Below are positions 5,744 to 31,004 of a stretch of DNA of 32,960 nt, piece by piece (position 1 is the first letter of the stretch; the number at the start of each line of letters is the position of its first letter). The notes beneath the pieces were generated by a model. That model searched no databases and was not told the origin of the DNA. It worked only from the letters and a program-made list of their open reading frames with translations. Location: contig JAJFFL010000021.1 in NCBI GenBank assembly GCA_021776705.1, forward strand, positions 1 through 32,960, given 5' to 3'. The DNA is from Alphaproteobacteria bacterium. Its GTDB lineage: Bacteria > Pseudomonadota > Alphaproteobacteria > Caulobacterales > Maricaulaceae. A program made the translations under genes and the position numbers.

Positions 5744-6220
5744 ATGTTGAACCTCAAGAAAACCGCTATCTACTTATCGGCCTGCGTCGCCGCCGTTTCT
5801 CTCACGACCGCCCCCGCCGTCGCTGACGAGTGCCCCGTCGACCAAGTTCGCGCCAATGCAACGCCGGCCGGCCCGAGCGCCCCTTCTGGCGTCACCGACG
5901 AAGTCATCGCCTCGATAGATCTTGGCCAAGGCTATGGAGTTCCGGGCCGTCTTCTTCGTATGCGTCGGATTGAGATCGATCCGGGCGGCATCGTGCCGTG
6001 GCACGCCCACAATGAGCGGCCGGCCAACATTTATGTGATCGAAGGATCGGTTACTGAATATCGGAGCAATTGCGCCGTTCCGCTTGACCACTCCGCCGGC
6101 GACGTCGTGTCCGAGTCTGGCGAAATCTCACATTGGTGGAGAAACAACAGCGGCGAAACCGCTCTGCTGATCTCCGCTGATCTTCTCCCGCCCGCGAAGG
6201 ACGAAGACGCGACCAACTGA
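5744..6220 (+). CDS. Secreted cupin-domain protein
   Basis: Signal peptide; cupin core IDPGGIVPWHAHNERPANIYVIEGSVTEYRS...AGDVVSESGEISHWWRN. Confidence 0.82.
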   Translation: MLNLKKTAIYLSACVAAVSLTTAPAVADECPVDQVRANATPAGPSAPSGVTDEVIASIDLGQGYGVPGRLLRMRRIEIDPGGIVPWHAHNERPANIYVIEGSVTEYRSNCAVPLDHSAGDVVSESGEISHWWRNNSGETALLISADLLPPAKDEDATN

Positions 6221-6270
6221 CGGACGCCCTCTCCGTCGCATTTCCCCTCGCGTCATTCGACCCTCGCCTT

Positions 6271-6317
6271 GGAGGCGCGGTCCGGGTTCCCCGCCGGAAC
6301 CGCGCCTCCTCCTTATT
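6271..6317 (+). terminator. Rho-independent-like terminator after cupin gene
   Basis: GGAGGCGCGGTCCGG...CCGGAACCGCGCCTCC stem with a 1-nt bulge followed by TCCTTATTTT. Confidence 0.6.
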
Positions 6318-6332
6318 TTCGCAGGTGATCCC

Positions 6333-7568: not shown

Positions 7569-7651
7569 CCAATCAGCATTTCCGCGCAGCCCGAGCTGGG
7601 ATCAGTTTGGGCTCCAGCCCACGCACAAGTCGCCGAGTGAAGGAAACACAA

Positions 7652-8482
7652 ATGACCATGACCCTCACCAAATCCGATCCCGTCAAAACGCTCGCCCGAC
7701 CGCTGGAAGGCAAGACTGCGTTGGTCACCGGATCGACCAGCGGGATTGGCCTTGGCATCGCCGAAGCGCTGGCCGAAGCGGGCGCGACGATCGTTCTCAA
7801 CGGCCTCGGTGACGCTCAAGCCATCGAGACCACCCGCACCGAACTCGCCGACCGTCACGCGGTCAGCGCTCATTTTCACGGCGCGGACTTGTCCAAACCG
7901 GAAGCCGTCGAAGAGATGATCCGCTTTGCTCAGGACGAAGCCGGCGGCGTCGACATCCTGGTCAACAACGCCGGCATTCAATACGTGGCGCCGATCGAAG
8001 AATTCCCGACCGTCAAATGGGACGCGATTCTCGCAATCAATCTTTCCTCGGCGTTTCACACTATCCGAGCCGTAGTGGCTGAGATGAAGGCGAAGGGATA
8101 CGGCCGCATCGTCAACGTAGCGTCGGCGCACGGTCTTGTCGCATCGCCTTTCAAGTCGGCCTATGTGGCGGCCAAGCACGGCGTCGTCGGTCTGACCAAA
8201 GTCGTTGCGCTTGAATCGGCCGAAAGCGGCGTGACCTGCAACGCCATCTGCCCTGGCTACGTTTGGACGCCGCTGGTCGAAAAACAGATTGAAGACCAGG
8301 CGAAAGCACACGGCATCTCGCGCGAGAAAGTGATTTCCGACGTCCTGTTGAAGTCGCAACCGAACAAGCAGTTCGCCACAGTCGAAGAAATCGGGGCACT
8401 CGCCGTTTTCCTCTCCAGTCCCGCCGGCGCGTCGATCACCGGAACCGCCCTGCCCGTCGACGGCGGCTGGACGGCGCATTGA
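7652..8482 (+). CDS. bdhA: SDR-family 3-hydroxybutyrate dehydrogenase-like protein
   Basis: TGSTSGIGLG, NNAGIQYVAPIEEFP, YVAAKHG, NAICPGYVWTPLVEKQI, VDGGWTAH. Confidence 0.85.
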   Translation: MTMTLTKSDPVKTLARPLEGKTALVTGSTSGIGLGIAEALAEAGATIVLNGLGDAQAIETTRTELADRHAVSAHFHGADLSKPEAVEEMIRFAQDEAGGVDILVNNAGIQYVAPIEEFPTVKWDAILAINLSSAFHTIRAVVAEMKAKGYGRIVNVASAHGLVASPFKSAYVAAKHGVVGLTKVVALESAESGVTCNAICPGYVWTPLVEKQIEDQAKAHGISREKVISDVLLKSQPNKQFATVEEIGALAVFLSSPAGASITGTALPVDGGWTAH

Positions 8483-8508
8483 CCCTCAAAACGCAAAAGA
8501 GATCCGCC

Positions 8509-9582
8509 ATGACCGTGATGGACGTAGCCGCTCCCGCGCCGCGTCGCACTCGCGCGAAGAAAACGCCGACCGACGTCAAGACAATCAATGTCGCCCTACA
8601 AGGCGGCGGAGCACACGGCGCCTTTTCTTGGGGCGTTCTCGACCGGCTGCTTGAGGACGAACGCATCGGTTTCGAAGGTCTCAGCGCGACAAGCGCCGGC
8701 GCGATGAACGCGGCCGTCCTCGCCTTCGGATTGGGCACAGGCGGGCGTGAAGGCGCCAAGAAGGCCCTGGCGTCGTTCTGGCGGCGCATTTCGCATGCAG
8801 GGATGTTCAGCCCGCTCCAGCCGACCGCCTTCGACCGAATGGCGCACAATCACGCGCTGGAAAATTCGCCGGCGTTCCTAGCCTTCGATCTCATCAGCCG
8901 TGTTCTGTCGCCCTACGAATTCAATCCGTTCAATTGGAACCCGCTCCGCCAAGTGCTGGAGGACTGCATAGACTTCGAGACCCTGCGAGAATGCTCAACC
9001 GTCAAGCTGTTCATCTCCGCGACCAATGTCCGCACCGGCAAGATCCGAGTCTTTGAGAACCACGAATTGACCGCCGACGCTGTTCTAGCGTCCGCTTGTT
9101 TGCCGTTCATGTATCAAGCCGTTGAGATCGACGGCGAGGAGTATTGGGACGGCGGCTACATGGGCAATCCGGCGATGTATCCGCTAATCTACAAGTGCGA
9201 CAGCCGCGACATCGTCATCTTGCACATCAATCCGATCGAACGGACCGAGACCCCGAAGTCGGCTCGCGACATCCTCAATCGGATCAACGAAATCAGCTTC
9301 AATTCCTCGCTGATGCGCGAAATGCGCGCGATTGCATTCGTCACCAAGCTCATCGACGAAGGCGGCGTCGACGAGTCCAAAATGAAGCGGATGCTCATCC
9401 ATGCGATCGAGGCGCAAGACTTCATGCGCGAACTCGGCGTGTCCTCGAAGCTCAACTGCGATTGGGAGTTTCTCACCCACCTGCGAGATGTGGGCCGTGA
9501 GCGCGCGACGGAATGGCTGGACACCAACTTCGACGCGCTCAACCAGCGCAGCTCGATCGACGTGTCCGAAACATACCTCTGA
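8509..9582 (+). CDS. Patatin-like phospholipase
   Basis: VALQGGGAHGAFSWGVLDRLL, SATSAGAMNA (GxSxG-like), WDGGYMGNPA (DGG). Confidence 0.9.
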   Translation: MTVMDVAAPAPRRTRAKKTPTDVKTINVALQGGGAHGAFSWGVLDRLLEDERIGFEGLSATSAGAMNAAVLAFGLGTGGREGAKKALASFWRRISHAGMFSPLQPTAFDRMAHNHALENSPAFLAFDLISRVLSPYEFNPFNWNPLRQVLEDCIDFETLRECSTVKLFISATNVRTGKIRVFENHELTADAVLASACLPFMYQAVEIDGEEYWDGGYMGNPAMYPLIYKCDSRDIVILHINPIERTETPKSARDILNRINEISFNSSLMREMRAIAFVTKLIDEGGVDESKMKRMLIHAIEAQDFMRELGVSSKLNCDWEFLTHLRDVGRERATEWLDTNFDALNQRSSIDVSETYL

Positions 9583-9587
9583 GCGCC

Positions 9588-11003
9588 ATGAGCGATGAAC
9601 TAGCTCGCCAACAAGCGACGACCGCATCCGTTGGCGCTTCGGCGCGAGACAAGCTGAACGCGATTTTGTCCATCATCCGCCGAAACCTCGGCGACATGCT
9701 GAGGCCGCCGACTGCGCCGCCGCGCGCCGCGAGCGCGATACACGAAGCGGAAGGCCGGGCCGAAATCTTTGTTGGCTACGTTCAGCTGGCGGGCGTGATC
9801 ACATTCGCTGCGCTCTACGGTCTGTCGCGCGCCGCTTTTTCTGCCGGCGGCGGTTTTGAGCCGGTTCCGCTCATGCTCGTGCTGTACGCTGGATTCGTCG
9901 TCTGGCGGCTTCGAATGGCGTTGCGCGGAAAATTGACGCTCGCAATTTTGACGGTTTCGACCGTCGCCGACGTCGGCGTCCTCATGGGCGCGATTTGGTC
10001 GTTTACCATTCAATATGACGCGCCGGGGGCGCTTTATCTCAAGGCCCCGACGCTGCTCTACGTTTTTACGCTCATTGCTCTCCGCGCCCTCCGCTTCGAT
10101 CCTCGGCAGGTCTTGCTTTCCGGCGTCGTCGCCGCACTTGGATGGATCATCTTGGTGTTCTTGGCGGCCTTCGGAGACGAACCGGCGCCGCTGACGTCGG
10201 ACTACCCCACCTACATGACATCGTTGTCGTTGCTTTGGGGCGCGGAGGCGGAAAAAGTCCTCGCGATCCTCGCGGCCACCGTAATTCTTGCACTCGTCGT
10301 GGCGCGCGCCCGCACCCTCCTGATCCGCACGAGTGTCGAAACAGACGCGGCGACCGATTTGGCTCGCTTTCTCGATCGAAACGCCGCGCGAAGGGTGCGC
10401 CAGGCCGAAACCGCGCTGGAGGCGGGAGACGGCGAACTCAAGCCTGCCGCGATCATGTTCATCGACCTTCGAGGCTTCAGCGCGGCCGCAGCCGCGATGG
10501 ACGCTCGCGACGTGATCAAACTTCTGGAAGAGTACCAAAGCCGTTTCGTGCCGGTCGTCGAAGCCGCCGGCGGTTCTATCGACAAGTTCCTCGGCGACGG
10601 CATCCTTATAAGCTTCGGCACAGCGGCATCGTCAGGTCGCGAAGCTGCGGACGCTTTGGCCGTCATTCCCGCTCTTCTCGGCGCCGCGGACCTGTGGGCC
10701 CGCGATCGAAAAGCGAGAGGCGACCCGCCGCTCGATGTCGCTGTCGCCCTCACAACCGGCGAAGTGGTTCACGGCGTCGTCGGCTACGGCGATCGCCTGG
10801 AATTCACGGTCATCGGAGACGCCGTAAACTTGGCCGCCAAATTGGAAAAACACGCCAAAGTGGAAAACGCCCGGGTGATTGCGACTCTGGACGTCATCCA
10901 ACGCGGTCACGCTCAAGGCCAAGCCGCGACGCCGACACGCATCGTCCGGGCCGCTTGCGTCGAAGGCGTGTCCAAGCCGATCGACCTCGCCGTTTTGGCC
11001 TAG
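9588..11003 (+). CDS. Membrane-anchored class III adenylate/guanylate cyclase
   Basis: N-terminal TM helices; AAIMFIDLRGFSAAA...GGSIDKFLGDGILISFG...GEVVHGVVGYGDRLEFTVIGDAVNLAAKLE. Confidence 0.93.
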   Translation: MSDELARQQATTASVGASARDKLNAILSIIRRNLGDMLRPPTAPPRAASAIHEAEGRAEIFVGYVQLAGVITFAALYGLSRAAFSAGGGFEPVPLMLVLYAGFVVWRLRMALRGKLTLAILTVSTVADVGVLMGAIWSFTIQYDAPGALYLKAPTLLYVFTLIALRALRFDPRQVLLSGVVAALGWIILVFLAAFGDEPAPLTSDYPTYMTSLSLLWGAEAEKVLAILAATVILALVVARARTLLIRTSVETDAATDLARFLDRNAARRVRQAETALEAGDGELKPAAIMFIDLRGFSAAAAAMDARDVIKLLEEYQSRFVPVVEAAGGSIDKFLGDGILISFGTAASSGREAADALAVIPALLGAADLWARDRKARGDPPLDVAVALTTGEVVHGVVGYGDRLEFTVIGDAVNLAAKLEKHAKVENARVIATLDVIQRGHAQGQAATPTRIVRAACVEGVSKPIDLAVLA

Positions 11004-11120
11004 CGGCGGTTCGATGCAGCATGGTTATCGCGGTCATATTAACTCGGCATTTCAATCGTGAGCCGCTCTCCAGCATCCTTCGAGATATGGACCAAGCCCT
11101 GCAACTCGAGGGAGACCATA

Positions 11121-11261
11121 ATGAATCCGATTATTGACTGGGAAAGCGCTTGTGAAGATCCGCATCCGACGCTTGCCGATATCGCCCGTTGCCGGCGTCT
11201 CGCACTCGCCAACCGATTGGCTCGCCAATCCGGTGCGATGCAATTCGATCGAAGAGCCTAG
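11121..11261 (+). CDS. Short hypothetical ORF (46 aa)
   Basis: ATG with GGAGACC upstream; MNPIIDWESACEDPHPTLADIARCRRLALANRLARQSGAMQFDRRA; lies between two genes on the same strand. Confidence 0.35.
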   Translation: MNPIIDWESACEDPHPTLADIARCRRLALANRLARQSGAMQFDRRA

Positions 11262-11270
11262 GAGCGCGTC

Positions 11271-11762
11271 ATGCACAAAGCATCTTTGCTTTTTCAAAAA
11301 TGGGCGCCGCACGCCGTCGCTGTCTTCACGTCCGCCGTGTTTCTCGACTCCTTGCGGTTCAAGTTCACCAACCACCCCAACACGCAAGAGATCTTCGGCC
11401 GCCTTGATGCGTGGGCGACTCAACACGGTCTGCCGGGCTTGTTCGCGCCAACCGGTCTCTTCAGCCAATACTCGATCGGCGTGGCCGAACTGGCGGCGGC
11501 GATCCTACTCCTCGGCGGAATGTTCTTTCCGGCATATCGCTTCCTGCAACCGGTCGGCGCGATTATCGGCCTGGCCGTAATGACCGGCGCGATTTCGTTT
11601 CACTTGTTCACGCCGCTAGGCATCGACCCAAACAACGACGGCGGCGGATTGTTTCGCGCTGCATGCATGGTCTGGCTCGGCTGCTTGTCCCTCATCGCTC
11701 TGCGCTGGGACGCGGTCACAACCCTCGGCCGAAAGATCGCCGTTTTCGCCGCGCCGGCGTGA
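11271..11762 (+). CDS. DoxX-like / DUF417-like membrane protein
   Basis: Four hydrophobic segments; FKFTNHPNTQEIFGRL...GLFAPTGLFSQYSIGVAELAAAILLLGGMFFP...ISFHLFTPLGI. Confidence 0.7.
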   Translation: MHKASLLFQKWAPHAVAVFTSAVFLDSLRFKFTNHPNTQEIFGRLDAWATQHGLPGLFAPTGLFSQYSIGVAELAAAILLLGGMFFPAYRFLQPVGAIIGLAVMTGAISFHLFTPLGIDPNNDGGGLFRAACMVWLGCLSLIALRWDAVTTLGRKIAVFAAPA

Positions 11763-11786
11763 TCGCTTCCACTCGGAAACACACCA

Positions 11787-13148
11787 ATGACCGCCTCCAA
11801 GCAATTCCATCATTCCGACTGCGAGGACCCGCTGACGTCCCGAAGAACGTCAGACGACCGACGTCCGCGCGTGGTGATCGTCGGCGGTGGATTCGCCGGA
11901 CTCGCCGCCGCAACCGCCCTGCGCCGCGCCCCGGTCCGCGTCACGCTGATCGACCGCCGCAATCACCACTTGTTTCAGCCGCTGCTCTATCAAGTCGCGA
12001 CCGCGGCCTTGTCGCCCAACCAAATCGCCTCCCCGATTCGCACGATCCTGCGCGGTCAGAAAAACGCCGCGGTCATGATGGACGACGTGACCGGCATCGA
12101 TCGCGATCGCCGCGAGGTCCAGGCGGGCGACCGCCGCGTGCCCTATGACTACCTGATCGTCGCGACCGGCGCGCGGCAATCCTACTTCGGCCGCGACGAC
12201 TGGGCACCTTTGGCGCCGGGACTCAAGTCGCTTGAAGACGCCATAGAACTCCGCAAGCGCATCCTGCTCGCATTCGAGCGCGCCGAGTTCGAGGGCGACC
12301 CGGACGAGCGGCGCCGCTTGCTGACGTTCGTCGTGATCGGCGGCGGCCCCACAGGTGTCGAAACAGCCGGGGCGATCGCAGAACTCGCGCGCAAAGCCCT
12401 TGCGATGGACTTCCGCTCCATCGACCCCAGCTGCGCACGCATTGTGCTGGTGGAGGCCGGTCCGCGCCTGCTGTCCGTTTTTCCGGAGAGACTGGCTCGC
12501 CATGCCTCGCATGCGCTCGACGCGCTCGGGGTCGAGGCGCTTGTCGGGCGAAAGATCACCCAAATCGTCGATGGCGGCGTGACGCTGGGCGACGAGTTCA
12601 TCGCCACGCGTTCCGTCGTCTGGGCGGCTGGCGTGGCGTCGTCGCCAGCGGCGGCTTGGACTGGATGCGAAACAGACGGCGCCGGTCGCGCCCTGGTTCG
12701 GCGAGATCTGACGGCGCCTGGACATTCTGAAATCTTCGTTCTTGGCGACTGCGCGCATGCCGCCAACGACAGCGGCGCTCCTTTGCCGGGCCTGGCTCCC
12801 GTCGCCAAGCAGCAAGGAATCTACGCGGCGCACGTCATCTCCAACGAGCTCAAAGGACGTAGGTCGCGCAAACCGTTTCGGTACAAACCAGTCGGAACGA
12901 TGGCGACGATCGGCCGGCACTCTGCAATCGCTGATTTCGGACACGTGCGGCTCGTCGGCTTCGTGGGTTGGCTGACTTGGTCCGCGGCTCACATCTATTT
13001 TCTGATCGGTTTCCGCAATCGCGTCGCCGTCGCGTTCGATTGGGCATGGAGCTATTTGACGTTCGAACGCGGCGCGCGGCTGATCACCGGGCCCATTGCG
13101 CCGACGCGACCGACATCGCAGACGCCCAGCACGCGCCGTGCGGCGTGA
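11787..13148 (+). CDS. ndh: Type II NADH dehydrogenase (NDH-2-like, FAD-dependent)
   Basis: VVIVGGGFAGLAAATALRRAPVRVTLIDRRNHHLFQPLLYQVATAALSPNQIA; VVIGGGPTGVETAG; C-terminal TM region. Confidence 0.92.
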   Translation: MTASKQFHHSDCEDPLTSRRTSDDRRPRVVIVGGGFAGLAAATALRRAPVRVTLIDRRNHHLFQPLLYQVATAALSPNQIASPIRTILRGQKNAAVMMDDVTGIDRDRREVQAGDRRVPYDYLIVATGARQSYFGRDDWAPLAPGLKSLEDAIELRKRILLAFERAEFEGDPDERRRLLTFVVIGGGPTGVETAGAIAELARKALAMDFRSIDPSCARIVLVEAGPRLLSVFPERLARHASHALDALGVEALVGRKITQIVDGGVTLGDEFIATRSVVWAAGVASSPAAAWTGCETDGAGRALVRRDLTAPGHSEIFVLGDCAHAANDSGAPLPGLAPVAKQQGIYAAHVISNELKGRRSRKPFRYKPVGTMATIGRHSAIADFGHVRLVGFVGWLTWSAAHIYFLIGFRNRVAVAFDWAWSYLTFERGARLITGPIAPTRPTSQTPSTRRAA

Positions 13149-16910: not shown

Positions 16911-19900
16911 TCAGTCCGCGTTGTTGCTAGACGCCGTAGCGCCTCGATTCAGCCAATAGTGGTCCACCACTCGCAACGCGCGCGCAATCGCGCCGGGCGG
17001 CGCGCAGACGTCGTCGCCGATGCGGTAGCCTTCGCCTTGGAGCGCAGGTACGGCTTTGAGATCGCCCTCGTTCAAGAGCCGCCGCGCTCCTCGCAGCTTT
17101 CCCGTCGCTGGGTCGCAGACGAGCGAGACGAGCGTGTGCTGGCGGCGTCGGACCTCGATCGGCGGCAGGCCAGCCACGGCGCGTTGAGCGTCCGTGCGCA
17201 ACCAGCCGATATCGAGTCGAACCAGTTGATAGTTCACAAGTCCGATCGCTGAAGCGCCGTCGGGGCGGATGGAGATCGGCCGGACCGGGTTCCAGACAGC
17301 GCCGTCGACCCGTCTGAAGGCACTGACTGGAGATTCTTGGGCAAATGGGCCGACGAGGCTGTCGCCGCTGGCGACGTCATAGAGCAGGAATCCCGTAGCC
17401 GTCCGGAGAGCTATGCGCGCGCCATCGGCCAGAATCTGCCCATGTTGGGCTTCCCGATGTGATTGGGTGACTGGACCAAGAGGACGGGCGGTGGCGACGT
17501 CCCAAATTTGCAAATATGCCCTATCGTCTTCACGACCGAAACTGTCTCCTCGATCGAGATGACTGCGGACAACAAAACGTCGGTCGTCGGTCAACTCGAT
17601 CCGTTCGCTCTCCCACAGCGGCGGCAATTCGGCAAAGATCTCGCCTGTGAGAGCCTCCCTAAAGACGACCGAGCCTGACTCGTTTGTGACCAACGCCTCC
17701 GCCGCTCCGTGAAGCGTCACTTGCCAAGAGTCGAGTTCGAAATTTCTGACCGATTCGCCTGTGGCTACATCATAAACGTCCACGAAGGTGCGGTCTCCGT
17801 CCCCTTGTTCGACAATCAGCTCCTCTCCAGTGCGTGATAGAGAGAAGGAGTGGAAGCCGCGACGAACCGGAATCATGATTCCCGACCCGACCGACGCTCC
17901 GGTGGCGACGTCCCAGACCCTTAATAGGTATTGCGGATCGGGGTTCGACCGGGACGGGACACTGGATTCGCCGATCGGCCTTGAGAGAGTAACCAACCTC
18001 CAGCCATCTGCGGAAAAGGCGCTGTCAAAGGCGGTGTAGAATTCGAGGCCCGGTTCGCGCTCAAGCTCGCTTGGGATAACCGCCCCGGTCCGCGCATCGC
18101 GAAGTATTAGGTAGGCTGGGGGGTGAACATACGGCGCATCAGGCGCGCTAGTCGGTGGTGGCCGTGTGCTGCGCACGCCGATCAGGCGGCGTCCGTCTGG
18201 ACTGATCCCGGCGATTCGTTCTCTGCGGAGGCCGTCGGGGGTCTCAACCTGAGCCGGAATGGGCTCCGAATCCACATCAGGTTCGTACGTCGAGAGATCC
18301 CGTCGGCGCCACGTCTGCGTCTCCGGAGCCCGATCAGAGTCCAGTTTCAACGCGTCGCCGACCCACAGCACCGTATGATCAGGCGACAAAAAGAAATCGA
18401 CGAGCGAATTCGGCGGGGAAATATCCTCCATCCAAGGCGCGGTAAACCCAGTGACAATCCGAAACGAGTAGCCAGGGTTGGGGATTATTGGACCGGGCTT
18501 TGAGAGGATTCGCGGGATGGATGGCGAAAAGGCAACCCCGAGATCCGGATAGTCGTCGCTCGCGTCCGGCCAGAACAGCACGTCCAACCCGGCTACGCCC
18601 GGGACCCGCTCGAAACGATCACCTGTCAGGCGAGCGGCGTACGGGCCGCCATCGATGTCGAAAGGGTCGCCGATCCACTCTCCCGTCTCGACATCGAACA
18701 GGCGATAGCGGCGATGCCTGAGATAGCTGTCACCGCGCTTTCTTTCGTCAAACCAAGACGTAACCACCGCGAAGCGACGTCCATCCGCGCTAAACGCGGC
18801 TGCCTCCAAAAATTCTCTGTCCTCGGCTTCGAACCTCAGTGCGCCTGCCTCCCCGGTTGTGGCGTCCCAAAAGTTGACCGTCTTGTATCCAAAAAGGACA
18901 ACCGAACGCCCATCCGGCGAGAATCCGGGGCTCTTAGGAGACGTTGCGTTCCCGAAGATCGGCGTGACAGGCTGGTAAGTGTCGGTGCGCCAAACCTGCG
19001 CCTCGCCATCTTTGTTTACTGTCAGGAGCCGCTCGCCGTCAGGCGAGAACCTGGCGAAGGAAAACCTGCTGCGGTGTTCCGGCGGATAGTTCAATGGACC
19101 TGCGAGCGGCGTCCCGGTAAATGCGTCAACGACGAAAACGCCATACGCCTCGCCTTCATCGATCACGCGCTCGGAGGCTGAGTTCGTCGTCGTCAGTCTA
19201 CCATCAAGCACGAACAACCTGCCATTTGGCGATAAATGCCCGCGCATCTCACTGAATGCAATCGGCGGGTCGGCGACGCTCTCCCCAGTCTCGATCGAGA
19301 ACAATCTCGGCGCATAGCAGTCGAGGAAGAGGAATGCGCCGTCAGGTGAAAACTGTGCCGCGTTCAGTTTGTCTCCACACGAGATCGGCGCTCCGACTAA
19401 GGCGCCCGTTTCGGCGTCCCAAACCCTCACCGACCTTTTGCCGCCCGAAAAGCGTCCAACCTTTGTGGCTATGCGACGGCCGTCCACAGATTGAGCCACG
19501 AAAGAATGCTCCTCGCCCTCGCCAATGCCGATGCCGTCGGGAAGCTGGGTCGCGGCATCGATCAAGCTTTGCAATGCCGCCGGCGCGGGCCTGGCGAGGA
19601 GATCGCGGCGAGCGCCAAGGGCGGCGAGGCGTACGGCGCGCTCAGTGGTTTCGACAGTGTGACCTTCGTCGATCGCGCGCTCGAACGCCTGGCGAGCGCT
19701 CTGCGCCAAACCCGCCGACGTTGTCGGAGACCGTTCGCGTTCGATCCAGCCGAGGCCCGCGCCAACGACGCCGAACAGAACAACTCCTACCGCCAGCGCT
19801 TGCATTCGCCGGGCGCGGGCCCGGCGACGTTCGCGTTTCCAGAGGTCGTCAAAGGCGGCGCCGACGAGTCCTGCGGCGAGGCGAACCTTGAGGCGAGAAA

Positions 19901-20375
19901 GCCCGTCCTTGCGCCAGTCCGGAGCCAGTGGTTCGTCCTGCTCGCCCGTAAGTTCCCCGTCGGGGCCGACCTTTTCCTTTAGCGCCGGGCAGAAACACTC
20001 CGTCTTTGGATCATTTGAGTTGGGCTTGCCCCCGACGATCACAGCGAATACGCGACCCACCCCGCGATGCTTGAAGCGGCGCACCTCGAGGTCAACCCAC
20101 TTCGATCGAGCCGACTGGGGCGAACACAGAACGATCAGGCTTTCGGAATCGTCAATCGAACCTTGCAAGGCTGCGCCGAGGCTCTCTACTGCGCCCATCT
20201 CCTCGTCGTCTCGGAAGAAACGGCCGAGCCGCCGCGACTTCGGATCGAGGCCAGGCGCGGTCACGCCGCCAGGCGTTCGCCACGCTTCGAGCGCCTTGTG
20301 CAGCTTCACCGCCCAGCGCTTGTCGCGCTGGCTGTAGCTTATGAAGGCGCGATAGCGTCGCTTATTTTCACTCAT
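16911..20375 (-). CDS. TIR-domain protein with single TM helix and C-terminal WD40/beta-propeller repeats
   Basis: N-term RYRAFISYSQRDKRWAVKLHKALE...ESLIVLCSPQSARSKWVDLEVRRF; TM MQALAVGVVLFGVVGAGLGW; many (F)SPDGRR...VWDxxTG repeats. Confidence 0.9.
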   Translation of the reverse strand: MSENKRRYRAFISYSQRDKRWAVKLHKALEAWRTPGGVTAPGLDPKSRRLGRFFRDDEEMGAVESLGAALQGSIDDSESLIVLCSPQSARSKWVDLEVRRFKHRGVGRVFAVIVGGKPNSNDPKTECFCPALKEKVGPDGELTGEQDEPLAPDWRKDGLSRLKVRLAAGLVGAAFDDLWKRERRRARARRMQALAVGVVLFGVVGAGLGWIERERSPTTSAGLAQSARQAFERAIDEGHTVETTERAVRLAALGARRDLLARPAPAALQSLIDAATQLPDGIGIGEGEEHSFVAQSVDGRRIATKVGRFSGGKRSVRVWDAETGALVGAPISCGDKLNAAQFSPDGAFLFLDCYAPRLFSIETGESVADPPIAFSEMRGHLSPNGRLFVLDGRLTTTNSASERVIDEGEAYGVFVVDAFTGTPLAGPLNYPPEHRSRFSFARFSPDGERLLTVNKDGEAQVWRTDTYQPVTPIFGNATSPKSPGFSPDGRSVVLFGYKTVNFWDATTGEAGALRFEAEDREFLEAAAFSADGRRFAVVTSWFDERKRGDSYLRHRRYRLFDVETGEWIGDPFDIDGGPYAARLTGDRFERVPGVAGLDVLFWPDASDDYPDLGVAFSPSIPRILSKPGPIIPNPGYSFRIVTGFTAPWMEDISPPNSLVDFFLSPDHTVLWVGDALKLDSDRAPETQTWRRRDLSTYEPDVDSEPIPAQVETPDGLRRERIAGISPDGRRLIGVRSTRPPPTSAPDAPYVHPPAYLILRDARTGAVIPSELEREPGLEFYTAFDSAFSADGWRLVTLSRPIGESSVPSRSNPDPQYLLRVWDVATGASVGSGIMIPVRRGFHSFSLSRTGEELIVEQGDGDRTFVDVYDVATGESVRNFELDSWQVTLHGAAEALVTNESGSVVFREALTGEIFAELPPLWESERIELTDDRRFVVRSHLDRGDSFGREDDRAYLQIWDVATARPLGPVTQSHREAQHGQILADGARIALRTATGFLLYDVASGDSLVGPFAQESPVSAFRRVDGAVWNPVRPISIRPDGASAIGLVNYQLVRLDIGWLRTDAQRAVAGLPPIEVRRRQHTLVSLVCDPATGKLRGARRLLNEGDLKAVPALQGEGYRIGDDVCAPPGAIARALRVVDHYWLNRGATASSNNAD

Positions 20376-21224: not shown

Positions 21225-22220
21225 ATGTCGTCTCTCGACACCACCGTCTCGCGACCCGCGGCTTGGCCGTGGGCGATCGCTTTCATACTGCTCACCGTCC
21301 GGTTTCGGTACATCTTAACTGACGACGTCGATCTCTCGTACAATATCAGTTGGCTTATCCCGTTTCTCGCCGCCTATCTCGGCGTGCGCTACGGTCGTCG
21401 CGCGCTCGCTCCGATCCTGATTGCGGCGCCAATTCTCTTGCTGTCTGTCGAATTCGACGAGTTCCTGGGCGAACGCCTGACCGTCGCCGCGGGCTTGAAC
21501 GTTGCGATGTTCGCGCTCGCGGTCGCAACAGCGCTCGCCTTCGCCGCGCCGGAGCCGACGTCGCCCGGCGCCACGCTCTCGACAAAGCACTCGCGCGCAG
21601 CGATCGCGGTGTTCGTGCTGATCCTCTACTTGCTGTCCTTCTCGGTGACCGTCAGTCTCGAAACGTACGATGGGAACGCGTGGGCGGGTGTTGCGCCGTT
21701 TCGCGATTGGGCGTTTCCTGCGCTCGCGTTCTGGATGGCCGCGTCCGGGCGATTGTCGTTGCGCGGGCTCATCGTCGGTCTTGTCGTCTTTTCCGCCATC
21801 GTGTCGCTGACGCGGTCGCTGCTATTCATCGCGGACATCGGCCAAAACAACGGCTGGATCGCGCAGCCATGGATCGCCGCCGCGAACTTCTATTGGGACG
21901 GCCTGCGCTACGAAGCCGAGCGCATGATCGCCAACGAGCCGGCGTTCATGTACGCGGATCTTGATTGGAGCCCGAGCCGCATTTTTGCCGTGCCGTTCGC
22001 GCTCGCCGCCGGCTTCGCCGGACTCGCGCTTGAACCGGCATGGCGAGCCCGGCGGCTGCCCGCCCCTACACCCCGCACGCGCCAGTTGCTGCACGCCGCC
22101 GCGATCACAGCGGTTTTTGGCGCGCTGGCGTTCAGTCTCGCATCCGACGGAATGAATCTTACTGGTGAGGCGGTGTGGAACGCGATGTCAACGGTGGAAG
22201 CGGTTGGGCCAAATCCTTAG
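21225..22220 (+). CDS. Hypothetical multipass membrane protein
   Basis: Many hydrophobic segments; 9 bp upstream of the next ORF on the same strand. Confidence 0.75.
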   Translation: MSSLDTTVSRPAAWPWAIAFILLTVRFRYILTDDVDLSYNISWLIPFLAAYLGVRYGRRALAPILIAAPILLLSVEFDEFLGERLTVAAGLNVAMFALAVATALAFAAPEPTSPGATLSTKHSRAAIAVFVLILYLLSFSVTVSLETYDGNAWAGVAPFRDWAFPALAFWMAASGRLSLRGLIVGLVVFSAIVSLTRSLLFIADIGQNNGWIAQPWIAAANFYWDGLRYEAERMIANEPAFMYADLDWSPSRIFAVPFALAAGFAGLALEPAWRARRLPAPTPRTRQLLHAAAITAVFGALAFSLASDGMNLTGEAVWNAMSTVEAVGPNP

Positions 22221-22229: not shown

Positions 22230-24815
22230 ATGTCGGAGACGCGCATGAGAGCCGCGGCGGCCGTTGCTTTGTCGTGCCTTGTGCTCGCCGCATGCGCCAC
22301 GAATCCGGGCCTGCCGTATGCGACGGATACGATCGAGGTCGCTAATCGATACCCCCAATTCATTTACCCGATGGTCAATCCGATCATGCTGGCGATCCTC
22401 GCCGCTGCGGCGTTCGGATTCGGAGCCATTGGCGGACGACGCGCCGCGTTTTCGACGCCGCTCTTTTTCGCTCTCCTGACGTTCATCGCCGTCGTAGCCA
22501 AACAGATCTATAGTGACCCCGATTACATCGATCTTGAGTGGTTCGGGACAATCTTGGCTTCGGCCACCGCCGCCGCCGCAGGGCTCGCGGGCGCGCTGAT
22601 CGGCCGATGCGCCGCGGCGCGATGGACGACGGCCGACATCACGGATGCGGACTTTCAAACCGACGAAGACATAGGCGGCGACCTAAGCCGTCTCGCCGCC
22701 ACTGCGCGGCGGCTGGACGTGTCCGCCACGTTGCGGTCGTTCGTCTCTCTCTACTCGGTGCTTTCGAGCTTGACGTTGCTGATCCTGATGGCGGCGAGCT
22801 TACTTGCGCTACGCAACCAACTTGGAGGCGATTCCGGCGTCGGTTTCACCTGGGGTCTGGTGTTGGTCGCCGCCGCGGCGCTGCTTGCGCCCCTCGGCCT
22901 GGCGATTTTTGATGAGATGGCGCGTCAGCCCTTGCGGATCGCCTCGGGCGTGATCGCCGTCGTCGCCGGCGTCCTGACGATCGTGTTCGGATCGCTTTTG
23001 GCGCTGCTGTCCGGCATCGTCATTTACGTCGGGGCCGTTACGCTTCTGCGCGGCGAATACCACGGCGACTTCGCCCTCGACGATCCGCAGATTCGACGAG
23101 AGGTGTTCATCTACGTCGCCCTCTTGGCGCTGCTGACGTGGACCACGTATCGCTCGCTGCACATCGAGCGCATGCTTGCGAGCAAAGCGCCGCGGCCGGT
23201 GCTGCTCGGCTTTCTCAAGAGCGCCCGATTGAGTCGGCGGTTCGCGTACTTATTCGGCCTGCCGTCGTCGATGTGGCGGGCCGCCTCGTTGAGCCGCTTT
23301 TCATCGTGGCTTTTGCTCGCGTCGCGGCCGATGGTTTACGTTTCATTCGGAGTCGCCAGCTTCGGCTTGGATATCCAGCGTTTCACCACCTACGACTCCT
23401 TCGGTTGGGAAGAGCAAAACACGAGCTTCGGTTGGTCGCCCTATGCGCTCGCCGCGTTCGCCGTCGGCGCGGCGCTGCTCGTGCTCGGCCACGCCGCGTT
23501 TGCGTTCGGCAAACGGCTCGCTGCGCGTCGAATCTGGGAGCCGGAGGTCACTTCAACGAATGCGCCGGCGCCGATTCTGTTTCTGCGGTCGTTCGAGGAC
23601 GATCAACTCGGCATATCGCGTTCCTGGCTCGATCTTCCGGGCAGATGGCTGGACCTGTGGTCGTTCCGGCGCAACGTCGACGAGATGATGATCGACGAGT
23701 TCGCCCAGCTCGGCCCGGTGATCGCGCTTGGCAAACCCGGCGAGATCAGCGCCAAGTTCGGCGCTCAGAGGCGCTACGCGAGCCACGACGATTGGCAAGA
23801 ATTGATCGTCGACGCCGCCGCGCGCGCGAAGGCGATCGTCGTCGCGGCCGGTGAAACGCCGGGGCTGGTTTGGGAGTATGACCTTTTGAGGTCGCGCGGT
23901 TATCTTGAGAAAACGATCTTTTTGTTCCCGCCGTTCGCACTCACGTCAGAACGCGCGAGCAAGTCGCTTGCGCGCTTCGCTGAAGCGTATCCGGAACTCG
24001 ACCCGCGTTCGCGCCTCGACGGCGACTCGCTGATCGCGCTCACCGTGGAAAACGGCGCGGCGCGGCCGTGGACCGCAAAGCGGCCGTCCGCCTCGGCCTA
24101 CTTGGTCGCGCTGCGCCGCTTCTTTCTCCTGCGCGAACGCCCGGGCGCTCTTCGGACTGCATCGGATTCACCAAAGCCGCCGTTCAAACACCGTTTGCGG
24201 CTTATCGGCTTGGCGGCCGTCGCAATGGTCGCCGTCTCCGTGATCGCAGTCGGGTTGTTTGCGCCTAGACGAACGGTGACGCCGGCTTTCCTTCCACCCC
24301 TTGATCAATCGATTATCGCTGCATTGGCTGGAGCAACAATGTGCGGCGGCGAAGTCGACGACATGCTTGAGCAATGCCGACGTGATGCGCTGATTGCCGC
24401 GGGCGCGACGCCGCTTTCAACAGCGGATGCAGACGCGATGCTTGAAGCCTTGCGCACCGAGTGGGGATCCGAACCGACTGGCATCTTCAATATTGCGCGC
24501 AGCGATTTCGCTCTTGAAGCTGTCGCAGCGTGCGATGACGTGACCAGCATTGAGGCGTTCGACGTCCTTAGGGCCGGGTTGTCGGATCATCCAGCTTCAC
24601 TTGTCGATGTCGCCGTTCTCACTGACTTGCCTGAATCGTCCGCCTTTCGAGCCGGCGTGATCGCGGCGTTTCTCGCTGAGTCCTCCGGACCGCCCGATCG
24701 GTTTTCGGCGGCCCCCGCAGAGTGGGTCGCCGCGGCGTGTGCTGGTGACGGCCAATCGTGCTCAGGCACAAAGTGCCTGGTGCGAATCTTGGTCCGCCCG
24801 TTGATCGAGCGATGA
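22230..24815 (+). CDS. Large polytopic membrane protein with a cytosolic TIR/SLOG-like 'FLRSFEDD' domain
   Basis: Lipobox-like LVLAAC near N-term, multiple TMs, then APILFLRSFEDDQLGISR...GPVIALGKPGEISAKFGAQRRYASHDDWQELIVDAAARAKAIVVAAGETPGLVWEYDLL...KTIFLFPP. Confidence 0.8.
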   Translation: MSETRMRAAAAVALSCLVLAACATNPGLPYATDTIEVANRYPQFIYPMVNPIMLAILAAAAFGFGAIGGRRAAFSTPLFFALLTFIAVVAKQIYSDPDYIDLEWFGTILASATAAAAGLAGALIGRCAAARWTTADITDADFQTDEDIGGDLSRLAATARRLDVSATLRSFVSLYSVLSSLTLLILMAASLLALRNQLGGDSGVGFTWGLVLVAAAALLAPLGLAIFDEMARQPLRIASGVIAVVAGVLTIVFGSLLALLSGIVIYVGAVTLLRGEYHGDFALDDPQIRREVFIYVALLALLTWTTYRSLHIERMLASKAPRPVLLGFLKSARLSRRFAYLFGLPSSMWRAASLSRFSSWLLLASRPMVYVSFGVASFGLDIQRFTTYDSFGWEEQNTSFGWSPYALAAFAVGAALLVLGHAAFAFGKRLAARRIWEPEVTSTNAPAPILFLRSFEDDQLGISRSWLDLPGRWLDLWSFRRNVDEMMIDEFAQLGPVIALGKPGEISAKFGAQRRYASHDDWQELIVDAAARAKAIVVAAGETPGLVWEYDLLRSRGYLEKTIFLFPPFALTSERASKSLARFAEAYPELDPRSRLDGDSLIALTVENGAARPWTAKRPSASAYLVALRRFFLLRERPGALRTASDSPKPPFKHRLRLIGLAAVAMVAVSVIAVGLFAPRRTVTPAFLPPLDQSIIAALAGATMCGGEVDDMLEQCRRDALIAAGATPLSTADADAMLEALRTEWGSEPTGIFNIARSDFALEAVAACDDVTSIEAFDVLRAGLSDHPASLVDVAVLTDLPESSAFRAGVIAAFLAESSGPPDRFSAAPAEWVAAACAGDGQSCSGTKCLVRILVRPLIER

Positions 24816-25357: not shown

Positions 25358-27079
25358 ATGTCTCAAGGCGAGTTCTTGTCGGCGATCGACGCGCGCCTGC
25401 AGGCGCCGGGGCCGAAGCGCATCCTGTCGCTCGACGGCGGCGGCGTGAAGGGCATCCTCACCGCCGGCATGCTGGAAGTGATCGAGGACCGGCTGCGCGC
25501 GCGCATTCCCGATCCGGAAGCGAAAGAAAAGTTTCGCTTGTGCGACTACTTCGACCTGATCGGCGGCACGTCGACCGGCGCCATCATCGCCGCCCTGCTC
25601 GCGCTCGGGCTCAAGGCGGAGCAAGTCACCGAAGCCTACCGCGCGTTTTGTCCCGGGATTTTCAAACCGGGGTTTCGCGTGCCTATCTTTCAGTCAATCT
25701 ACGACCCGAAAAATTTCGAGCGCGTGATCCGCGCGACGCTCGCCGAAATCGCGCGCCGCTACGGCCGCGACCTGGACGCAATGACCCTCGACACCGAGAT
25801 GCTGCGCACCGGGTTCGCGGTGTTTTGCAAGCGCGCCGACACCGGCTCGCCCTGGATGCTCACCAACAATCCGCGGTCGATGTACTGGGACCATGCCACG
25901 GGCCCTTGGGCGGAATATTGGCGCGGCGTTTTCGAGCGTGAAGACGACAAACCGTTCCATCCCAACGCCAAGTATCCGCTCGGCGACGTGGTGCGGGCGA
26001 GCGCCGCAGCGCCGTTGTTTCTGGAGGCCGCGAAGATCAAAATCGGCGACGAGAAGACCGGCGTCTTCGTCGATGGGGCGGTAAGCACCAGCAACAACCC
26101 GGCGCTGCAGTTGTTTGTGACGGCGGCGTTGCGCGGTTACGATCAGCGCGCGGTCGACGACGGCAGACGCACGCCGTTCGGCTTTCGCTGGGCCACCGGA
26201 CCCGAGAACCTGTTTCTGTTGTCGCTCGGCACCGGGTCGCGGCGCGAGAAAATGAGATTCCGCAAGTACGTCGTCACCGAGCAAGTGGAAGCTGTCCGCG
26301 CGGTCACAGCGCTGACCACGATCATAGCCGACACGGTCAACAACGCGGTGGCGGTTCTCCAGGCCCTTTCCGCGCCCGCAAAGCCGGTGACGCTCAACAG
26401 CGAACTCTCGAACATCGACGGCTTGCTCGCTTCCGACACGCCGCTCTTGACGTTCCGACGGGTCGATCCGTCGATCGAACTCGACAAGCTCGACGCCGAG
26501 GCGCCCGGCGGCCCGCCGGGGCGCCGGAAGTCTTCGTGGCGCGACCACGCCAAGCGCGTAGGCCAACTCAGCGATCTTGACCGGGCGGACCCGCGCAACC
26601 TTGACTGGCTTCATCATATCGGACGGGTTCACGCCGAACGAGCCGTTGACGAAAAAGACTTTCCAGCCGCCTTCGACATCGAGGTTATGGGCGGCCCCGA
26701 TGGCCGCGCCGCCCGCCAGGCGGACGAAGCGGACCCCGCGCTGGTCGCGCGCATCGCCGAGGTGGTTCACGAGGCCCTGAGAGCCTGGAAGCTGTCGGCG
26801 GGCGAGGAGTCGCACCCGCATTGGAACGAAGCTCCTGAGTGGATGCGATCGTCGACGCTCGAGTCGGTCCGGTTCCGCATCGCCAATCCATCCGCTCCAG
26901 CTTCGGTGGAGCACGAGAGGTGGATGGCGGAAAGAGCGCGCGATGGTTGGCGACGAGGCCCGGAAAAGGACGAGACCGCCAAGACTCATCCGATGATGAT
27001 ACCCTATGCCGAGCTGCCGGAAGACGAGCGCAAGAAGGACGCTTTGATTATATCGGTGGTAGACGCGCTGATCCGGTAA
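25358..27079 (+). CDS. Patatin-like phospholipase (CapV-like) with C-terminal RyR domain
   Basis: RILSLDGGGVKGILTAGML; GGTSTGAII; VDGAVSTSNNPA; C-term VVHEALRAWKLSAGEESHPHWNEAPEWMRSS...EHERWMAERARDGWRRGPEKDETAKTHPMMIPYAELPEDERKKDALI. Confidence 0.92.
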   Translation: MSQGEFLSAIDARLQAPGPKRILSLDGGGVKGILTAGMLEVIEDRLRARIPDPEAKEKFRLCDYFDLIGGTSTGAIIAALLALGLKAEQVTEAYRAFCPGIFKPGFRVPIFQSIYDPKNFERVIRATLAEIARRYGRDLDAMTLDTEMLRTGFAVFCKRADTGSPWMLTNNPRSMYWDHATGPWAEYWRGVFEREDDKPFHPNAKYPLGDVVRASAAAPLFLEAAKIKIGDEKTGVFVDGAVSTSNNPALQLFVTAALRGYDQRAVDDGRRTPFGFRWATGPENLFLLSLGTGSRREKMRFRKYVVTEQVEAVRAVTALTTIIADTVNNAVAVLQALSAPAKPVTLNSELSNIDGLLASDTPLLTFRRVDPSIELDKLDAEAPGGPPGRRKSSWRDHAKRVGQLSDLDRADPRNLDWLHHIGRVHAERAVDEKDFPAAFDIEVMGGPDGRAARQADEADPALVARIAEVVHEALRAWKLSAGEESHPHWNEAPEWMRSSTLESVRFRIANPSAPASVEHERWMAERARDGWRRGPEKDETAKTHPMMIPYAELPEDERKKDALIISVVDALIR

Positions 27080-27300
27080 AGGCGGTGCTGGGAAAAAATG
27101 AACCTTCGGCCCTGCGAAACGGGCGTTGGTTTGGACCGTGACTTGAGTGTTCAACTGGGTGGTCCGTCTGCGTTTCAAATTCCTCGACCGCAGCATCCGC
27201 TTTTGTCACGGCGAGACCATCGATTCTCGATTTGGCAACTGAAGCGGATGTCATGCTTTGAACGCTTATCCATCCGGAACGCGCGCTATCCACCTGAAGC

Positions 27301-28347
27301 TCATTCTGCGGACTTGAGGATCGCCGTAACCGGATGATGGTCGGTATATTGGAAGCCGAAATTCCGGGTCGAGACATCGAGAATGTTCACATTCGGCGAG
27401 AAAAGGAGACCGTCAATAATGAAAGTCGCATTCTCCCCGGCGACGTAGGGCTTGTGCGCGGTCCGAACCGTTGGAGTCGAATCGTCAACTGCCCAGGTCC
27501 ATCCATCTGGAACAAGTTCCTGCGGGAACTCGCGAACCCAAAACAGATCCTCTTCGGACGTCGTGTTGTCGTTTCGATAGTCCGACAACAAGAGGTTCCA
27601 GTCGCCTCCAACAACGACGTGAGCCCCGCCGTCGTATGCCTCCTTCGCCAGCGCCAAGACGCGCCTTACCTGTGCTTCTCGAACCGCCGCCGTGTCCGTG
27701 TCAAAAGACGACAAGTGAATATTCATCAGCACCCAGCGATCCTCGGACGATTGATCAACGAACTCGATGACCTCGACGCCGTAGCGCTTGCGGAAGATGC
27801 CCAACGCAAAAGTCGGCTCCACCGGCAGCGCGCGGACCCGCGCTTCGTCGATCTTGAGAGCTGAATAGAATGCGTTTCCCACGCGGGTGCGCACCGGCGG
27901 CGGAACGAACCGAGTGTTCACTTCGGCTGTGAAGACGTGATCGTATCCGGCCAATGCCCGCGAAACGAGTCGTCGGACATTTGTCTGGTAGGTGCTCCAC
28001 GACGGCTCCGCGAGTTCCTGAATGAAATAAACGTCGGACCGTAGGCTCGGAATTGTCTTCGCGATCCAGGCCGCGTTTCTCTGCACCAGCGCTTTTTGCG
28101 CGGGGCGCATTTGAGTTCCGCCGTCCATCACAAAGTCGGCTTCGGCTCCCATCCCTGCGTAGCCGATATTCCAGGTCGTCACCTGCAACCACGGGCCGAC
28201 GAAGTCGACCGCATTCTGCGACCGGACAATCTGAATTGACGCGCTGTCGCGGCGGACCTGCTGCCGATTCACCAACGCGATGACCGCCGCCCAGGCCGCT
28301 AGGAGCGCGAACACCAAGACGAGCGCGATTGCTAGCTTCTTGAGCAA
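27301..28347 (-). CDS. Endonuclease/exonuclease/phosphatase (EEP) family protein with N-terminal TM
   Basis: TM MLKKLAIALVLVFALLAAWAAVIAL; LQVTTWNIGYAG; NIHLSSFDTD; VVGGDWNLL; TDHHPVTAIL. Confidence 0.87.
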   Translation of the reverse strand: MLKKLAIALVLVFALLAAWAAVIALVNRQQVRRDSASIQIVRSQNAVDFVGPWLQVTTWNIGYAGMGAEADFVMDGGTQMRPAQKALVQRNAAWIAKTIPSLRSDVYFIQELAEPSWSTYQTNVRRLVSRALAGYDHVFTAEVNTRFVPPPVRTRVGNAFYSALKIDEARVRALPVEPTFALGIFRKRYGVEVIEFVDQSSEDRWVLMNIHLSSFDTDTAAVREAQVRRVLALAKEAYDGGAHVVVGGDWNLLLSDYRNDNTTSEEDLFWVREFPQELVPDGWTWAVDDSTPTVRTAHKPYVAGENATFIIDGLLFSPNVNILDVSTRNFGFQYTDHHPVTAILKSAE

Positions 28348-29006: not shown

Positions 29007-31004
29007 TCATGAATTGCCCGCCATGACTCGCGACAAAGCGACGAGGGACAAGAAGACGATCACCAGAACGCCGACCTTGTAGAATACGAAGCTCGCCAGA
29101 AACATGATCACGACCGCGACCACCGTTAGCATGCCGGGCGAGTCCGTCGGCCATACTCGTATCCGCTTCAAGCGTTGACGAATTTCCTCATCGGAGAGAT
29201 TGGTAATCCGACGCAGGCGTGCAACGCCGATGTTTTCAAGTTCGTCGAACACGACCCGACGGCCGGCGCTCGCCGCCTGGCGAAGGAACAAGTAAAATCC
29301 ACCCAAGAACCCGATAACAATGAAAGCGAAGATGACCCACGTGAAGACGTTTTGAGGCGCCGTGCTGGGCGTATTCTCCGAGAACAGGTACCCGGTGATC
29401 TGGTCTAGGGCTTCTCGCGACGGATCCTGGACGAACGCCTGGATCATCCAAACGTCAGGAAGATAGAAACTCAATATGTTTGAGTCCGACGTGCGCATGT
29501 AGATGTTCTGCGCGCTCATGAAATAGCAGACGATCATCACGATGAAGAACACCGCCAATCCATAACCGAAGAACGCCCCGAGAGCCTCAAAACCACGTCG
29601 GCGGTCCTTCGAATTCAGATCCGGGATCACGGTCAGTCGATACGCATGGGTCACGCCCGGGAAAAACGCCAACCCGACACCGATCAAAATGAACATGAAC
29701 GAAAACAGCGAACCCACGCCGACGCCGGCATAAAGAGCGTAGACCGTGATGTCGAAGTAGCGGTTCGCGTCAGGATCGGTCGACACGGGGTCGCGGCGAT
29801 CGAGGTAGGCGGCGATCGACCAGTCCCGCTCCAAGCTGGGATGATCCAACGGATAGCCGTCGCCTCCGGAAACCTCGGAGATGACGTTTATCTTTCTATG
29901 TTCCGCCGGAGAATCCGCGATCGACGCGACCACTTGGTGGTAGTCGACGGCGGCGTACGAAAGTGCAAGGGAACTGACGAACAACATCGAAAAAACAACG
30001 AACCGCCCGATGTGCTTTTGCATGCGCAAGAAGTCAGGATGCTCCGCCGTGATTGGGTCGAGGTCGGTGGTTAGAATCATGCGGCGCTGAACCATTTCGC
30101 GGCCGGCGCGTCGCAGCTCAGACAGAGCCAGAAAAATAAGAGACCATGCCAGCGGCAACAAAACCACCGCCGTCAGGCTCCAATTCAACGCCGGAATGAA
30201 CCCGACTTGCTTTGCGCCAGTGTCCAACGCGGCGTCGCCGCCGAGGGAAGGCTCCCAGGTGACGAAACCAACGTTGATGAGGCCGGCGGCGATGATCACG
30301 CAAAATCCGACGGAGAAGGTGATCAAAAACACGGCGATGGCGGTCATCGTGCGCGCCGGCGATTGACGCGTAAATTTCGTCGCGCCGGATTCGGTCGTAG
30401 TTGACTCCGGCGTCGCTGTCGTCGCGATGGCCGAATGTTCAGGCGCGGAATCAGGTTGCGGCGAAATTAGATTGGTGGGATTCGCCGTTCTCATAGACTT
30501 TGGTTGAGCGCCATCGACACGAATCTCGAGTTTCGCCAGAGCGCGCAAAATCGCGTTCGTGTTCGAAACGCGTTCGACGTTGAATTCTCGAAAGCCGTAC
30601 GGCACGCGACTGAGACTGAACCCGTCGATGCACGTAGCGACCAGTTTTTCGTCAAGCACGCCTGTCAACGACTCTTCGCGCACCCAATGGGAGCGAATCG
30701 AGGCGTCGGACCAAATGACAATGACGGCGGCAGCAGAAGTGACCACGTCGCCGATGCGAATGCGAAACGCTTCCGTGGAGAGCAGATCTTCGTCCCACCA
30801 GACGTCGTAGCCCAAGCTCGTCAGGGCGTCCTTGAGCGAGCGCGCATGCTCGACATCGACGTGCGCGTAGGAAATGAAGATCGTCTTGGCCGACGCTGGC
30901 GCAGGTCCCCCCATCGCCCCCTCGACATGTCGTGGCCCCGGATCGATTGGGGCCGCAGGAATTATTTCCATCCCTCCAAGAAAGGCAATTCTATTCGCCA
31001 ACAC
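29007..31004 (-). CDS. TIR-domain protein with ~7 C-terminal TM helices (alternative ATG start at 30914)
   Basis: KTIFISYAHVDVEHARSLKDALTSLGYDVWWDEDLLSTEAFRIRIGDVVTSAAAVIVIWSDASIRSHWVREES, followed by multiple hydrophobic helices. Confidence 0.9.
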   Translation of the reverse strand: MLANRIAFLGGMEIIPAAPIDPGPRHVEGAMGGPAPASAKTIFISYAHVDVEHARSLKDALTSLGYDVWWDEDLLSTEAFRIRIGDVVTSAAAVIVIWSDASIRSHWVREESLTGVLDEKLVATCIDGFSLSRVPYGFREFNVERVSNTNAILRALAKLEIRVDGAQPKSMRTANPTNLISPQPDSAPEHSAIATTATPESTTTESGATKFTRQSPARTMTAIAVFLITFSVGFCVIIAAGLINVGFVTWEPSLGGDAALDTGAKQVGFIPALNWSLTAVVLLPLAWSLIFLALSELRRAGREMVQRRMILTTDLDPITAEHPDFLRMQKHIGRFVVFSMLFVSSLALSYAAVDYHQVVASIADSPAEHRKINVISEVSGGDGYPLDHPSLERDWSIAAYLDRRDPVSTDPDANRYFDITVYALYAGVGVGSLFSFMFILIGVGLAFFPGVTHAYRLTVIPDLNSKDRRRGFEALGAFFGYGLAVFFIVMIVCYFMSAQNIYMRTSDSNILSFYLPDVWMIQAFVQDPSREALDQITGYLFSENTPSTAPQNVFTWVIFAFIVIGFLGGFYLFLRQAASAGRRVVFDELENIGVARLRRITNLSDEEIRQRLKRIRVWPTDSPGMLTVVAVVIMFLASFVFYKVGVLVIVFLSLVALSRVMAGNS

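Follow-up and report, generated by a model that had tools for sequence, protein, structure and literature searches.

The patatin-RyR gene and its neighbours

The window, that is, the whole stretch of 32,960 nucleotides analyzed here, contains a gene whose product joins an N-terminal patatin domain to a C-terminal RyR domain (Table 1). The first-pass annotation had proposed a patatin ORF with a GGGVKG/GTSTG/DGA core at this position, and the ORF, the PF01734 match and the motifs were all recovered. The Pfam search gave PF01734 an E value of 5.7e-25 and 89.1 bits (cut-off 27.7), and the oxyanion, GTSTG and DGA motifs are conserved across the alignment of the patatin family. With all lipase motifs intact and the profile above its cut-off, the protein is predicted to be a patatin-like phospholipase; the top PADLOC match of its patatin part was a phospholipase effector (E 1.1e-35). 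This assignment comes from motifs and profiles and not from the AlphaFold2 model, which was poor over the patatin part because the alignment used contained two patatins only. At the junction with the RyR part the frame is unbroken and codon usage is alike on either side. The fusion, found in a single metagenome-assembled genome (MAG), could be strain-specific. A 500-aa antisense ORF (25694-27196) was rejected as a real gene: G+C at codon positions 1/2/3 is 0.66/0.48/0.81 in the patatin frame and 0.77/0.48/0.66 in the antisense frame, which favours the former and makes the latter a shadow ORF.

Table 1. Features of the patatin-RyR locus and of the related patatin gene elsewhere in the genome
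Feature	Position	Strand	Basis or remark
331-aa multi-TM protein	21225..22220	+	about 10 bp before the 861-aa gene
861-aa multi-TM protein	22230..24815	+	115 bp before the free RyR gene
Soluble domain, residues 426-657 of the 861-aa protein	23505..24200	+	weak TIR profile match
Free-standing RyR protein, 117 aa	24931..25284	+	second RyR match in genome search; same gene run
Patatin-RyR fusion protein, 573 aa	25358..27079	+	ORF and Pfam
Patatin catalytic domain PF01734, residues 23-252	25424..26113	+	Pfam; family alignment reaches about residue 445
Oxyanion-hole motif GGGVKG, residues 27-32	25436..25453	+	
GTSTG, residues 70-74, nucleophile S72	25565..25579	+	
DGA, residues 239-241, catalytic D239	26072..26080	+	
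RyR domain, RyDEP-like, residues 466-571	26753..27070	+	Pfam, profile, AlphaFold2, Foldseek
Key RyR residues of the fusion	H519 (26912), W522 (26921), H544 (26987), D561 (27038)	+	
Endonuclease/exonuclease/phosphatase-family protein, N-terminal TM	27301..28347	-	between the patatin-RyR and TIR-TM genes
TIR-transmembrane protein (TIR_2), candidate signal maker	29007..30914	-	SxWVxxE catalytic-Glu motif
TIR-WD40 protein	16911..20375	-	TIR resembles TIR-WD40 of the G491 RyR locus
Patatin paralogue with C-terminal SLOG-like domain	L053 3848-5659, contig C45, own genome		

About 74 bp upstream of the fusion gene lies the gene for a free-standing RyR protein, 60% identical to the fused domain. Two TIR genes are found within 6 kb of the fusion gene, on the opposite strand and outside its gene run; the 2.87-Mb genome has five TIR_2 matches, two of them in the window. 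Whether the endonuclease/exonuclease/phosphatase-family gene belongs to the system is uncertain. The soluble domain of the 861-aa protein, which has invariant LR.F, G.P and G..WE motifs and was detected in 23 of the 299 genomes covered in the order, had no match in Pfam, NCBIfam or the PDB. Aligned with a TIR profile it gave a weak match (hhalign probability 8%, P 0.004, against 0.06-0.62 for controls) in which WE falls on the TIR catalytic Glu; it possibly acts as a TIR-like signal maker and might belong to a new TIR-like domain family. The protein was rejected as an established TIR on account of this weak profile match and of a single-sequence model with a mean pLDDT of 50, for which the Foldseek matches were meaningless. 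None of the other genomes of the order that carry the domain is among the RyR-bearing ones, and membership of the 861-aa protein in the system is unsupported beyond this genome.

Farther upstream (68-5023), a metal-resistance stretch made up of the end of a HAD-type ATPase gene, DUF411, MerT and a Pyr_redox/mercuric-reductase-like gene borders a mobile element, an IS3-type transposase pair. The window also encodes, at 8509-11003, an unrelated second patatin of 357 aa (RssA-like), with a guanylate-cyclase-domain protein after it; a comparable SDR-patatin pair is present again on contig C270 of this genome.

The RyR module and its ligand residues

PF02026, which spans the RyR core alone, matched residues 515-562 of the fusion with an E value of 1.4e-10 and 41.7 bits (cut-off 27.4), bearing out the RyR assignment of the first-pass annotation; the complete module takes in about residues 455-573. 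PF02026 turned up in 8 of the 399 phylum genomes sampled, in 7 of the 385 sampled from the class and in none of 14 control genomes, and because it is so rare the match is not due to chance. An iterated profile built from bacterial and phage RyR proteins covered ~106 residues (466-571; domain E about 5e-45), AlphaFold2 assigned a pLDDT of 91-97 (about 95) to residues ~460-573, and the best Foldseek matches of the modelled module were human RyR3 Repeat12 structures. Thus the C-terminal module is a complete RyR domain, in agreement with the full-length module proposed earlier. Ryanodine receptors match it in fold but are not its nearest kin; the closest relatives are free bacterial RyR proteins of the module's own family, followed by phage RyR proteins.

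According to a May 2026 preprint (PMC13232231), phage RyR proteins bind 2'cADPR and 3'cADPR or cleave them. In one of them, RyDEP, H75 and D117 form the catalytic pair, W78 contacts the adenine and H100 the phosphates (PMC13232231). RyDEP and its phage relatives have the same ~107-aa domain as the RyR modules of the window, and we mapped these residues onto both modules by spacing and profile alignments. In the fusion the equivalents H519, W522, H544 and D561 occur at identical spacing (+0/+3/+25/+42), and the free protein has the same four residues, H60, W63, H85 and D102, again at that spacing. PDB 35tm, a RyR-domain protein that we take to be the RyDEP structure, matched both modules across ~100 residues.

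Since the His/Asp pair that corresponds to the RyDEP catalytic dyad is intact in both modules, the fused RyR could itself be a signal-degrading enzyme instead of a sensor. In a reading built on this, both modules would be signal-clearing glycosidases, with the fusion protein disposing of ADP-ribose signals and its lipase under some other control. We consider this reading highly improbable: most phage homologues that were tested show no cleavage even though their sequences are highly conserved (PMC13232231), so that an intact dyad is no predictor of hydrolysis, and it is difficult to see why a clearing enzyme would be fused to a lipase.

A tree of 31 RyR domains placed the host proteins, including both modules of the window, in one group (100/99) and the phage proteins, together with one Ensifer plasmid sequence, in another (100/99). 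The RyR modules of the window therefore differ from RyDEP in belonging to a chromosomal host clade, in which one is fused to the patatin and the other adjacent to it, and because this clade stands apart from the phage one, the fused RyR derives from the host free-RyR lineage rather than from a recently acquired phage gene. By its placement in the tree, the fusion is assigned to the host clade outside the phage RyDEP group, its ligand residues nonetheless being present. A recent tandem duplication as the origin of the pair was not supported, as the two modules are not sisters in the tree, although the forks concerned are weak. Close relatives, up to 45% identical, were found in 288 phage records; the matches include one Pectobacterium phage and one Ruegeria phage, and these two genera are among the sources of nanomolar binders in the preprint (PMC13232231).

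The abundance of phage relatives bears on a counter-counter-defence reading, in which a phage RyR protein, whether sponge or RyDEP, would disturb a restraining pairing or signal and so trigger the lipase, with the free RyR as part of the trap. RyDEP forms a homodimer (PMC13232231), Panoptes offers a precedent for the sensing of sponges (PMC12657218), and in 9 of 13 family loci a free RyR gene adjoins that of a larger RyR protein (see below). The separation of host and phage RyR proteins into two clades speaks against this reading, which we judge quite unlikely.

Sensor exchange and RyR neighbourhoods in relatives

The fusion itself was seen in this one genome. A scan of 84,980 genomes for peptide patterns of the patatin-RyR protein returned no relative, a scan of GTDB genomes with a RyR pattern yielded 13 loci with the fusion at none, and no further fusion was found among plasmids, 137 genomes of the family and the phylum and class samples. 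Nor did a literature search find the fusion in any paper; the 2015 survey of nucleotide-based conflict systems by Burroughs and colleagues reportedly treated SLOG and perhaps mentioned RyR.

The nearest patatin relative found was a paralogue from the same genome (47% identity over residues 10-441), which carries a SLOG-like domain at its C terminus. This domain scored weakly against the YspA-type SLOG model (21.1 bits, cut-off 28.2) and is clearly homologous (E 1e-12 to 1e-21) to the SLOG-like proteins found next to RyR/patatin gene sets; the paralogue is a candidate second ligand-gated lipase of this genome. The remaining members of the patatin family end near residue 400-445 and lack a fused sensor; in three genomes (G059, G004 and G271) such unfused patatins adjoin RyR-channel and SLOG genes. 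SLOG is the domain class through which ThsA of Thoeris senses TIR-made cADPR, and SIR2-SLOG ThsA effectors are switched on by 2'cADPR and 3'cADPR (PMC11204291). One patatin core thus exists fused to RyR, fused to SLOG or on its own next to both, which suggests that RyR senses a related signal. We infer, by analogy, that the RyR of the fusion would recognize a cADPR-related signal, and this exchange is the strongest indirect argument for it.

We examined the surroundings of RyR genes in relatives, using 20 RyR-bearing genomes picked by the presence of RyR regardless of its neighbours and gene calls made by a simple script rather than a trained annotator. In 6 of the 20 genomes RyR had a TIR gene no more than 5 kb away, where 0.10 was expected (P 2e-10, or 8e-9 with the window genome left out and 6e-7 with near genera collapsed as well); for patatin genes the count was likewise 6, where 0.15 was expected (P 3e-9; 8e-8 and 2e-6 after the same two steps). 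The P values take gene placement to be independent and are uncorrected for defence islands, which, if shared, could explain part of the clustering. In half of the surveyed genomes neither TIR nor patatin was near RyR.

The 13 loci of the GTDB scan, which used an alignment of bacterial RyR proteins, are labelled as Hyphomonadaceae genera or as Alphaproteobacteria. At nine of them a free RyR gene lies near that of a membrane protein of ~560-640 aa with a diverged C-terminal RyR; those examined have one TM segment or two at the N terminus, and some also match TrkA_N. At one locus (L064) 5 bp separate the free RyR gene from a patatin gene, and in G491 a free RyR gene is 66 bp from a TIR-WD40 gene; there a patatin gene is ~4 kb off and a second TIR-WD40 gene ~2 kb beyond. 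Genes for a membrane-RyR protein, a TPR protein and a TIR protein are adjacent in G425, in an order identical in G426, and a TIR-WD40 gene is 25 bp from a membrane-RyR gene in G856. Cassettes of membrane-RyR, patatin and SLOG-like genes occur in G059 and G004, and the same three are together in G271.

Two genes separate the free RyR and membrane-RyR genes at L060, L063 and L066 (~5300-10000); those of L060 code for a GH108 muramidase-like protein and for a trypsin protein that matches TPR-S. In the membrane-RyR proteins of L056, L057, L058, L063 and L066 the phosphate-binding His is missing from its usual position, with Arg or Lys at or near it, and the free RyR retains it. The membrane-RyR partner may thus have a ligand pocket different from that of the free RyR.

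These neighbourhoods also help to weigh a reading outside defence, in which the ligand of the RyR is an ordinary adenine nucleotide (ATP, ADP or ADP-ribose) and the protein is an enzyme of lipid metabolism or stress tuned to the energy state. The best fold matches, human RyR3 Repeat12, bind ATP, ADP and AMP-PCP, and structures with these ligands (e.g. PDB 6uhh) were among the Foldseek matches. Repeat12 of animal ryanodine receptors shares adenine-ligand residues as well as the fold with the fused RyR, and because it binds ATP, ATP is a possible ligand here; RyDEP W78 also braces adenine (PMC13232231). The bacterial protein differs from the animal receptors in having a single RyR copy on a soluble lipase and no channel. 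The rare and patchy distribution of RyR, its clustering with TIR genes and the alternation of RyR and SLOG on the same patatin all count against an ordinary nucleotide, which we regard as unlikely.

A candidate nucleotide-gated lipase

Thoeris, in which ThsB is a TIR protein and ThsA a SIR2-SLOG or macro-domain effector, has a similar expected logic, a TIR-made ADP-ribose signal acting on an effector with a C-terminal sensor. TIR genes near the locus and the SLOG sensor of the paralogue are Thoeris-like features, whereas the effector here is a patatin, the sensor is RyR and TIR is not in the operon. No ThsA was found in the window, the neighbouring genes scanned having no SIR2, SLOG or macro domain, and the TIR proteins of the window fell below Thoeris cut-offs (PADLOC ThsB 13.9 bits; NCBIfam type III ThcB4 17.4 against 220); for these reasons the locus was not classed as Thoeris. 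The fusion may all the same work like a Thoeris effector.

The patatin effectors of CBASS, CapV and CapE, have the same lipase core as the fusion, and nucleotide-activated membrane damage is a likely further common trait. CBASS patatins such as CapV are not known to have a separate sensor domain, so the RyR domain is an addition to the patatin and not, as first proposed, a replacement for a cyclic-nucleotide sensor. Besides its separate C-terminal sensor, the fusion differs from CBASS effectors in its low score against the lipase model (89.9 bits for NF041079, cut-off 200) and in having no linked CD-NTase: none was present in the neighbouring genes scanned, and the one SMODS gene that the genome has lies on a different contig. 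We therefore did not class the locus as CBASS. Under a CBASS-like alternative, a cyclic oligonucleotide produced elsewhere would activate the protein through its patatin domain, and RyR would serve only for dimerisation. The weak similarity to CBASS lipase models and that one CD-NTase are compatible with it; the subthreshold score, the lack of a CD-NTase among the neighbouring genes scanned and the conservation of the RyR ligand residues make it very doubtful.

The bacterial 2-TM/TrkA_N-RyR proteins resemble the fusion in coupling an effector-like module to a C-terminal RyR, and in relatives their genes adjoin free RyR, TIR, patatin or SLOG genes. They differ in their channel-like membrane output, which takes the place of the lipase, and in the diverged clade of their RyR.

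Taken together, a ligand-gated phospholipase is the best reading of the patatin-RyR protein, and it gains support from the conserved ligand residues, the TIR and patatin neighbourhoods and the SLOG-fused paralogue. NAD-derived ligands are favoured for the fused RyR. More specifically, we propose, with about an even chance of being right, that the protein is a nucleotide-gated phospholipase effector of an anti-phage, abortive-infection system whose RyR domain senses an ADP-ribose-type signal made by a TIR enzyme. Upon infection, a TIR-type enzyme (either nearby TIR protein or the 861-aa protein) would convert NAD+ into a cyclic ADP-ribose-type signal. Binding of this signal to the C-terminal RyR would rearrange a RyR dimer and switch on the S72/D239 lipase, and the cell membrane would be damaged. 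The free RyR might clear the signal as phage RyDEP does, setting a threshold, or else pair with the fused RyR. Several points weigh against this proposal: the position of the TIR genes outside the patatin gene run and on the other strand, the half of the RyR genomes with neither gene close by, the single MAG with the fusion, the weak case for the 861-aa protein, and the chances that the fused RyR degrades the signal or binds ATP.

No host protein that receives a cADPR signal through RyR was found in the literature searched. The fusion is a candidate for such a receptor that is small and soluble and would have a measurable lipase output. If the proposal is true, TIR signalling would be tied to membrane-damaging patatins, and bacteria would offer a model for the reading of cADPR by RyR, a long-standing question in animal ryanodine receptors. 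More tentatively, and with a somewhat smaller chance of being correct, host RyR domains might be the receptors of a TIR-linked immune family of Alphaproteobacteria, with a patatin or a 2-TM/TrkA_N channel as output, a soluble RyR as damper or partner and the phage RyDEPs as the viral counterpart. No description of such a family was found in the literature searched.

RyR genes also occur on plasmids of Streptomyces, Endozoicomonas, Aeromonas, Acinetobacter, Rhodococcus and Prescottella (L010-L014, L016 and L017). They lie mostly amid phage genes and therefore carry little information on host function; they are consistent with phage-plasmids that encode RyDEP-like proteins. At a further locus (L096 in G917, 5967-12536), a 758-aa protein that has RyR near its N terminus stands divergent from a 97-aa free RyR protein beside a DUF4062-looking gene, a further RyR pair in a conflict-type setting.
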